Assembly (NCBI RefSeq): GCF_032818155.1
Contig: NZ_CP102589.1
Coordinates: 2,652,001 to 2,716,000 of the forward strand
DNA length: 64,000 nt
DNA from: Niallia taxi
GTDB lineage: Bacteria; Bacillota; Bacilli; Bacillales; Cytobacillaceae
Direction of reading: 5' to 3'
The position numbers were made by a program, and so were the translations under genes. This document shows positions 32,611-33,933 of the stretch, piece by piece; position 1 is the first letter of the stretch; each line of letters begins with the position of its first letter. The notes beneath the pieces were generated by a model. It ran no database searches. It had not been told where the DNA came from and worked only from the letters and a program-made list of their open reading frames with translations.

Positions 32611-32642
32611 ATATGGCTGTACATGATAGCTTAACAAAGCTA

Positions 32643-32680
32643 AGAGGTTCATAGCAGATACCCTCTATAAAAAACTATGG
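32643..32680 (+). promoter_or_regulatory. preQ1-I riboswitch
   Basis: Sequence matches the preQ1 class I aptamer: P1 AGAGG (32643-32647) with CCTCT (32662-32666), the conserved TTC-N-TAGC loop, and an A-rich tail ATAAAAAACTATG whose CTATG (32675-32679) pairs with CATAG (32650-32654) to give the pseudoknot. preQ1 is the product of QueF, so this is feedback control of queuosine precursor synthesis. An overlapping antiterminator follows. Confidence 0.9.
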
Positions 32681-32730
32681 ATACAGGTGAACAACTGCCA
32701 TGTCCATAAATCAGGATGTGGCTTTTTATT
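32675..32730 (+). terminator. Riboswitch expression platform: terminator/antiterminator
   Basis: Terminator stem GCCATGTCC (32697-32705) with GGATGTGGC (32714-32722) followed by TTTTTATT. TATGGA (32676-32681) can instead pair with TCCATA (32703-32708), which would destroy the terminator; this strand is part of the aptamer pseudoknot. So ligand binding should free the terminator and turn queF off. Confidence 0.82.
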
Positions 32731-32802: not shown

Positions 32803-33571
32803 ATGTCAGGCAGAAAACACGAAGAAGGTCTTGAGGATTTAACATTGCTCGGGAACCAAGGAACAACCTACCTATATGAGTACAATCCAGAAATATTGGA
32901 GTCTGTTGACAACTTGCATGTGAACAGAGATTATTTTGTTAAATTTAACTGTCCAGAATTTACCAGCTTGTGTCAATAGGGCACACTTCAGTGGAGACAC
33001 TGTCGCTTAAACCTCGTGAACTCAGGGAAGGAAGGAAATTCTAATCCTGAGCCAAGCCTCTAACATATTAGAGGAAGGTGCAGAGACTATCGAAACCATG
33101 CAGATTAAGAATCGGGTAAAAGTACTAGTTTGCAGAAGGGAGTAGAGTACATCCATACTATTGGGTGGAAGCGCGAGGATGCTTATATTCGACCGAAAGA
33201 ATATATGTATATGATATAGTCCACCTGCAAATTTTGCAGTGCCAATTACTGGACAACCGGATTTTGCTACAATGTATATCAGCTATATTCCGGACAAGAA
33301 AATCGTTGAAAGTAAATCTTTGAAGCTATACTTGTTTAGCTTCCGTAATCACGGTGACTTTCATGAAGATTGCGTGAATATCATCATGAACGATCTTATT
33401 AAATTATTAGATCCTAGATATGTAGAAGTATGGGGTAAATTCACACCAAGAGGCGGCCTATCAATTGATCCTTATTGCAATTATGGTAAGCCAGGAACTA
33501 AGTTTGAAGAAATGGCTGCACACCGTCTTATGAACCACGATTTATATCCAGAGAAAGTGGATAATAGATAA
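32803..33571 (+). CDS. queF: QueF, NADPH-dependent 7-cyano-7-deazaguanine (preQ0) reductase, split by an intron
   Basis: Two exons, 32803-32973 and 33242-33571. Exon 1 is 57 codons (start ATG 32803, GGAGAGATTAAA before it) and ends in EFTSLC; exon 2 gives [20 protein letters not shown] onward to [12 protein letters not shown]. Joined they make 166 residues, the size of the unimodular Bacillus QueF. The joined motif [11 protein letters not shown] holds the catalytic Cys (residue 57) and the conserved Asp. The enzyme reduces the nitrile preQ0 to preQ1, a queuosine precursor. Without removal of the interval, a TAG in frame stops exon 1 two codons after Cys57. Confidence 0.93.
32974..33241 (+). 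ncRNA. Group I self-splicing intron in queF
   Basis: 268 nt, no reading frame. P1: exon TGTGT (32969-32973) pairs with GCACA (32981-32985), giving the U-G wobble at the 5' splice site. P2: CAGTG-GAGA-CACTG with a GNRA loop (32989-33002). P4: CTCAGG (33021-33026) with CCTGAG (33046-33051). P6: CCTCTAA-CATA-TTAGAGG (33057-33074). P7: GACTAT (33085-33090) with ATAGTC (33216-33221), inside the conserved R and S elements GTGCAGAGACTA and GATATAGTCC. A P9-like hairpin precedes the terminal G (33241). Splicing there restores the QueF frame. P3/P8 were not resolved by eye. Confidence 0.92.
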
Positions 33572-33575
33572 TCGA

Positions 33576-33933
33576 AAAAGAGGCTGGGACATAAGTATGT
33601 GAACCAGCGTAAAGACCGAACTACTTAATCAACTATTAATTAAGTAGTTCGGTATTTTGTTTTTAGTTTAAATACAAAAAATTAGAAATTTTAGTGGAAT
33701 GGAGCGGAGGCCACTCGACTCCTAAGGGAAATAGAGGAAAGGATGAGACCCCGCAGGCGAAGACGAGGAGGCTCCATACCTCCCCGCGGAAAGCGCGAGG
33801 ACGAGCGCGCAATGAAACGAACTAACTTTAACTCAACATTCTATTTAAACACAATCTTCACTTTTCAATTTTAGTTGTAATTCTATTATTCGTGTTTAGA
33901 AAGCTTATCTTTTGTTTTGTCCCAGCCTCTTTT
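33576..33933. repeat. Bacillus-type interspersed repeat with 15-bp inverted ends
   Basis: A 358-bp block bounded by AAAAGAGGCTGGGAC (33576-33590) and its exact complement GTCCCAGCCTCTTTT (33919-33933). The interior (about 33690-33825) has GAGACCCCGCAGGCGAAGAC and CCCCGCGGAAAGCGCGAGGA, typical of GC-rich repeats scattered in Bacillus genomes (as I recall them). No protein is encoded. It fills the space between queF and the YfiT-like gene, and the right end doubles as the latter's 3' region. Confidence 0.75.
33615..33653 (+). terminator. Hairpin after queF, probable terminator
   Basis: Perfect 15-bp stem: ACCGAACTACTTAAT (33615-33629) with ATTAAGTAGTTCGGT (33639-33653), then ATTTTGTTTTTAG. It sits inside the repeat block, 44 bp after the queF stop codon. 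Confidence 0.65.

Follow-up and report, generated by a model that had tools for sequence, protein, structure and literature searches.

The locus described here raises the question of how queF, a tRNA-modification gene, can yield its enzyme in Niallia when the coding sequence is split by a 268-nt interval. In this text, we use the term window for the whole stretch of DNA that was analysed (64,000 nt). An initial annotation had placed a group I intron in the interval, and this observation is confirmed: queF contains a group I intron, and the coordinates first given are exact to the base. All features lie on the plus strand. Exon 1 (32803–32973), delimited from the open reading frame list, comprises codons 1–57 and ends AGC TTG TGT; the intron (32974–33241, 268 nt) runs CAATAGGGCACAC...TTGCAGTG; and exon 2 (33242–33571) starts CCA ATT ACT GGA CAA CCG and comprises codons 58–166 and the stop. 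The insertion lies between codons 57 (Cys) and 58 (Pro), i.e., in phase 0, and right after the active-site Cys codon, as had been noted; we take this residue to be the catalytic Cys of QueF (Cys55, B. subtilis numbering). Exact joining of the flanks restores a 166-aa QueF, again as annotated. The joined protein scores 176.4 bits with TIGR03139 (QueF-II, preQ1 synthase; equivalog cut-off 86.9), which is more than exon 1 (32.0 bits, model positions 2–31) or exon 2 (128.7 bits) alone, and its residues 4–166 align with the solved QueF chain 4f8b. Translation of the unspliced mRNA through the splice site would give a 58-aa fragment, ending at an in-frame UAG (32977–32979) that is the second intron codon and lies in the P1 loop. 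Downstream of queF, positions 33690–33830 are rich in G+C and include CCCCGCGGAAAGCG, a 14-mer found once in the window; this stretch resembles a repeat common in Bacillaceae.

The group I assignment is based on a covariance model match, on a drawable core and on the ends of the interval. RF00028 matches positions 32964–33239 over all 253 model positions (60.6 bits, cut-off 50, E 6.8e-13 in the 64-kb window), so that the covariance search proposed in the initial annotation gave a full-length match above the cut-off; at gathering scores this is the sole Rfam match in the window. The score is modest, and comparable to those of the four closest Niallia (57–60 bits), while eight other intron-bearing loci score 72.8–85.5 bits. 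In total, the cut-off is reached by 13 of the 14 intron-bearing queF loci scanned, the window's among them, and is not reached by one, L037.

The elements listed at the outset (P1 with its U-G wobble, a GNRA-capped P2, P4, P6, P7, and the R and S elements) could all be traced in the window sequence, and G is the last base of the interval. The helices drawn in this way were counted on a MAFFT alignment of 13 queF introns. In P1 (32969–32985), the exon sequence UGUGU (32969–32973) pairs with the guide GCACA (32981–32985), and this pairing, with the U32973·G32981 wobble at the 5′ splice site, is found in all 13. The P2 hairpin (32989–33002) has the GNRA loop GAGA; across the 29 distinct queF introns described below, this loop is of GNRA type in 28, with six sequences (GUGA, GAGA, GUAA, GAAA, GCAA and GCGA). 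P3 pairs 33012–33016 with 33174–33178, P4 pairs 33022–33026 with 33046–33050 and encloses the P5 region, and P6/P6a (33051–33079) is formed by 33051–33053 with 33077–33079 and by 33057–33063 with 33068–33074. P7, the guanosine-binding helix, pairs 33085–33089 with 33217–33221, is pseudoknotted with P3, and is invariant in the 13 sequences. Two hairpins of P7.1/P7.2 type (33100–33167) consist of 33100–33107 with 33126–33133 and of 33150–33154 with 33163–33167. P8 is a hairpin at 33179–33210, and P9 (33225–33239) is a hairpin just before the 3′ end, whose six outer pairs are paired in 77.6% of the alignment cells. P10 comprises at most 2 bp, as judged by eye.

Of the 833 cells counted, 95.8% are paired, compared with 36–44% after the helices are slid by 1–3 columns, a control biased toward the drawn structure, which was derived from the window's own sequence. 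Double changes occur in 24 of the 67 base pairs, compared with 13.5 in shuffled alignments (0 of 500 shuffles as high), and the covariation score is 0.267, compared with 0.053–0.071 for the slid versions. The double changes are located in P3 (a single C-G to U-A pair among the 13), P6a (5 of 7 pairs), P7.1 (6 of 8), P7.2 (3 of 5), P8 (5 of 12) and P9. P1, P2, P4, P6 and P7 are invariant in the 13 copies, and covariation therefore says nothing about these helices. The two covarying hairpins sit between P7 and the 3′ strand of P3 in the alignment of 13; P7.1/P7.2-type hairpins at that position are the rule for group IA, and the intron may belong to this class.

A search for the same insertion in related queF genes, as had been proposed, showed it at exactly this position in 28 related bacteria. 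Together with the window copy, 29 distinct introns were extracted, from 31 intron-bearing rows of which two are duplicates (Aeribacillus composti = G704; Bacillus sp. 165 = G940). All 29 (31 of 31 rows) share the exon end UGUGU and a terminal intron G, which in the window is position 33241, with the 3′ splice site at 33241/33242. In Niallia, queF is split in seven of 13 genomes and whole in six, and all seven split copies have the same intron ends. A 21-base core pattern matched 37 stretches in the species-genome collection, and revealed intron-bearing queF genes in Anoxybacillus, Aeribacillus composti, Heyndrickxia sporothermodurans, Ectobacillus panaciterrae, Bacillus chungangensis and Bacillus sp. 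165.

For genome counts, a covariance model (R1) built from the 13 queF introns was applied to family, order, class and phylum samples, which overlap. Seven of 193 genomes of the window's family exceed 280 bits, all from the window's genus; no other match there exceeds 78.5 bits, and none of the 23 such matches that we inspected is in queF, their host genes being, as judged by eye, class II ribonucleotide reductase, recA, phage-like genes and others. The family of G471, which includes Anoxybacillus, has 17 of 41 genomes scoring at least 124 bits, and queF is split in exactly those 17; nine introns of this family are identical to Anoxybacillus introns. An even sample of the order gave 8 of 397 genomes with at least 158 bits. 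There, queF was detected in 376 genomes and showed a split pattern, judged from the match number and E-values per genome, in the same eight and in G916, which we rejected as a ninth case, its pieces lying at contig ends as expected of a cut circular record. Scores of at least 150 bits were found only in the window's genome (G000), G471 and G453 among 398 genomes of the class sample, and the phylum sample gave only G000 among 398. Within the genomes sampled, the queF intron family does not extend beyond the window's order, in which its presence is patchy. Its members resemble each other closely: with their own model, copies that lack a long insert score 218–307 bits and those with one 124–171 bits (3′ part), while the best other group I intron scores 113. 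An Acholeplasmatales MAG contig (L036, 6827–7820) contains three successive group I matches within 1 kb (105, 36 and 107 bits with the queF model).

The lengths of the queF introns range from 249 to 1201 nt, and the difference comes mostly from an insert of 13–894 nt in the P5 region; without it, the introns measure 236–307 nt, except for 485 nt in G595. In six of the 29 introns, including those of some Anoxybacillus relatives, the P5 loop contains an open HNH-like ORF of 288–316 aa. Internally deleted versions of this ORF are found in G588 and G616, while G471 and G589 match only its last 50 residues (98% and 88% identity), 33 of which overlap the intron core. Apart from its insert, the G471 intron does not differ from that of G593, in which the ORF is complete. 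Weaker ORF matches in other introns are mostly due to overlap with the intron core. The ORF matches the profile PHROG 8446 ‘HNH endonuclease’ (E 1.3e-8), with a match in both ORFs scanned; Pfam gave nothing over its cut-off and the solved structures in the PDB no match, so that its assignment depends on one PHROG match and on C/H motifs identified by eye. Among 5.8 billion sequences, a word-based search found seven protein clusters that match the ORF, its own included. The initial annotation had stated that no homing endonuclease gene is present, and this is correct for the window copy, in which the longest internal ATG-started ORF has 15 aa, but not for the family, in which the putative enzyme is intact in 6 of 29. 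At E 1e-3, no endonuclease remnant was detected in the seven Niallia introns; these also have no ATG-started ORF of more than 26 aa, and hence no transposase genes of the kind fused to the group I intron in an IStron. The family thus appears to contain all stages of endonuclease loss, i.e., intact, broken and absent.

Several features of the exons and of the intron's 5′ end point to splicing. UGUGU, which matches the guide GCACA, stands before the site in every one of the 31 intron-bearing rows (29 distinct), compared with 11 of 60 intronless rows, a non-random set made up of 6 Niallia rows, 24 from the G471 family and, from the order sample, the 30 loci with the best scores. When nine independent pairs are taken from the queF tree, a mean of 6.6 support the association of UGUGU with the intron, 0 oppose it, and 2.4 show no difference (median p 0.016, range 0.008–0.06). 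An in-frame stop is the second intron codon in 27 of 29 introns (TGA in 11, TAA in 9 and TAG in 7), and codon 13 in the other two. No second queF was found in the window's genome, which has a tgt over its cut-off and an open queE, and since the single queF is accompanied by these two retained genes, a working QueF is expected.

We consider it very probable, on the basis of these comparisons, that this is a real and functional group I intron, and we hold with high confidence that it is a self-splicing intron that restores QueF. The Niallia copy would be the endonuclease-free kin of a mobile intron, and would itself once have contained the endonuclease gene. In this configuration, the RNA would fold after transcription, and the guide GCACA would pair with the exon end UGUGU to form P1. 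A guanosine docked in P7 would then attack after U32973, and the freed exon end would in turn attack after G33241, so that Cys57 and Pro58 become adjacent and QueF is restored. The stop two codons into the intron would release ribosomes ahead of the catalytic core, and because ribosomes are freed this early, unspliced RNA would yield only the 58-aa stub. The Niallia copy would be related to the introns of the Anoxybacillus group, whose P5 loop encodes the HNH-like putative homing endonuclease; this enzyme would presumably cleave queF alleles that lack the intron, close to the conserved active-site codon, and in this way spread the intron.

How the intron reached Niallia is a separate matter. 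Its presence requires 12 changes on the best queF tree, and in the genus coded g29 (which we guess to be Geobacillus) it is found in one of 14 genomes (G605), beside intronless sisters. The members of the G471 family form an acceptable single clade on the queF tree (p 0.523, not rejected), while the intron tree rejects such a clade (AU p 0.014, in a test run after the tree had been seen) because the Aeribacillus intron falls inside the Anoxybacillus group. For Niallia, the chances appear to us evenly divided as to whether the intron came passively, within a horizontally acquired stand-alone queF, or by homing into a resident gene. Arrival with the gene is suggested by the different neighbors of queF in bearers and non-bearers (two of seven and four of six loci compared, respectively), since a gene kept at different places may have brought the intron with it; by the queF tree, in which the seven intron-bearing Niallia genes are near that of Heyndrickxia sporothermodurans, itself with an intron; and by the missing endonuclease remnant in all seven introns. 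On the other hand, the neighbors also differ between the two bearers compared (L009, the window's locus, and L014), so that moves of queF within Niallia would explain the loci as well, and a tree with all 13 Niallia queF genes as one clade is not rejected (AU p 0.212), which leaves two unrelated queF lineages in the genus statistically unsupported.

With respect to the sites themselves, queF is beside mnh-like antiporter genes (named by eye) in the intronless Niallia loci L003, L006, L007 and L008; in the intron-bearing L009 and L014, it is away from such genes, at sites unlike each other. The fourth residue after the insertion site (33251–33253 in the window) is Gly in 31 of 31 bearers and in 36 of 60 intronless rows, which otherwise have H, N, R, S, K or Q. 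This Gly might reflect a target requirement of the endonuclease or co-conversion, but a test that takes the tree into account gives no significant link with the intron (median p 0.125).

A quite different proposal is that the intron is a regulatory device, in which splicing, a preQ1 riboswitch and the early stop would jointly set the level of QueF, for instance in response to cellular GTP, which serves as cofactor of splicing and as precursor of preQ1. A preQ1 aptamer is located upstream of queF in the window (32638–32684, about 120 nt before the start codon), slightly below the Rfam cut-off (RF00522, 36.4 bits; gathering score 39), and one over the cut-off precedes queF in seven of the 14 intron-bearing loci scanned (L012, L028, L029, L037, L039, L046 and L057). 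None was reported at the cut-off for L009, L010, L011, L013–L015 and L058. Aptamers scoring 39.3–42.3 bits are found in L003, L006, L012 and L057, and the first two of these loci have an intronless queF, so that the riboswitch occurs without the intron as well. The position of the stop in 27 of 29 introns and the retention of the intron without an endonuclease in the seven Niallia bearers would fit a regulatory role, but are equally expected of a neutral intron. Moreover, the intron is dispensed with in 6 of 13 Niallia and 24 of 41 G471-family genomes, and the GTP link is hypothetical. A precedent for riboswitch control of a group I intron exists in Clostridioides difficile, where a c-di-GMP-II riboswitch is described as controlling a group I ribozyme (PMC9495176). 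Overall, we regard a regulatory function as improbable, and its most specific form, in which two RNA controls (preQ1 riboswitch and group I ribozyme) are stacked on queF and the endonuclease-free intron acts as a gate, early-stopped ribosomes and GTP supply setting the amount of QueF, as marginally more improbable still.

The least probable reading, which we consider very unlikely, is that a decayed, non-splicing intron has made queF a pseudogene, with QueF activity lost or replaced by preQ1/queuine salvage: the window's RF00028 score is just 10.6 bits above the cut-off and its P8 has one U·U mismatch (present in five of the 13 aligned copies, all Niallia), and the failure of the bearer L037 to reach that cut-off adds slightly to the chances of this reading, but both exons are intact and conserved relative to the four closest Niallia species (dN 0 to 0.02, dS 0.06–1.1 where computable; dN 0 and dS 0.06–0.28 versus G004 and G012; dN/dS 0.005 and 0.011 versus G008 and G010; based on 9 of 28 pairs, several with saturated dS), P7 and the core elements are invariant in the 13 aligned copies, the exon-guide pairing is compatible in every bearer extracted, and the genome that keeps tgt and queE has no other queF copy.

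The favored reading is thus a self-splicing intron that restores QueF, i.e., a known kind of element in a new host gene. The initial annotation knew of no group I intron in queF, which agrees with our searches of the full-text literature: no such report was found, although coverage is incomplete and spellings such as ‘group-I catalytic intron’ may be missed, and no relevant paper on group I introns of Anoxybacillus was found, as judged by title. With queF, a tRNA-modification gene joins the few bacterial protein genes known to carry group I introns, and its single insertion site offers intact-endonuclease, broken-endonuclease, endonuclease-free and empty alleles in named species. In practical terms, queF in these genomes would be annotated as two fragments by any gene finder that does not consider the intron. 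PMC3984707 finds little evidence that bacterial introns move between species, and the queF family allows a direct test of such movement.

Comparison with known systems places the intron as follows. The transcript described for C. difficile and that of queF each combine a riboswitch with a group I intron; in queF, the preQ1 aptamer is in the leader and the intron is inside the coding sequence, and coupling of the two is a proposal only. Phage group I introns with HNH homing endonucleases are known from SPO1 and Bastille, and the queF introns likewise can have an HNH-like ORF inside. Phage introns score at most 113 bits with the queF model, and among 80 viral loci of 92 stretches none scores like a queF intron. 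The nrdJ-type class II ribonucleotide reductase and recA introns of the window's family (genes named by eye) are found by the same model with at most 76 bits; they have other host genes and sites, and low similarity to the queF family. In the window's own genome, an nrdE-like intron (L002, 1484–1897, contig C2; named by eye) likewise stands directly behind a 5′ exon that ends in TTGTGT (Leu-Cys), and some short core stretches (GCAC.CTTCAGT and GACTATCGAAA) are common to it and the queF intron, but it lies in another gene and contig, its match is 397 nt long, and its scores are low (29 bits with RF00028, 29.2 with the queF model). We looked for a source of the queF intron in nrdE and in phages, but neither this intron nor the best of the phage introns comes near the scores of the queF copies, and so we name no donor. 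Finally, the bacterial protein genes listed as hosts in PMC3984707 are those for flagellin (thermophilic Bacillus), recA, nrdE and nrdF (Bacillus) and cyanobacterial nrdE, and many of these introns are described there as having a stop in frame with the upstream exon. The queF intron is of the same ribozyme class, and shares with them a conserved host gene and the in-frame stop; it differs from them in that its host is a tRNA-modification gene, and in that it forms a tight family of its own.
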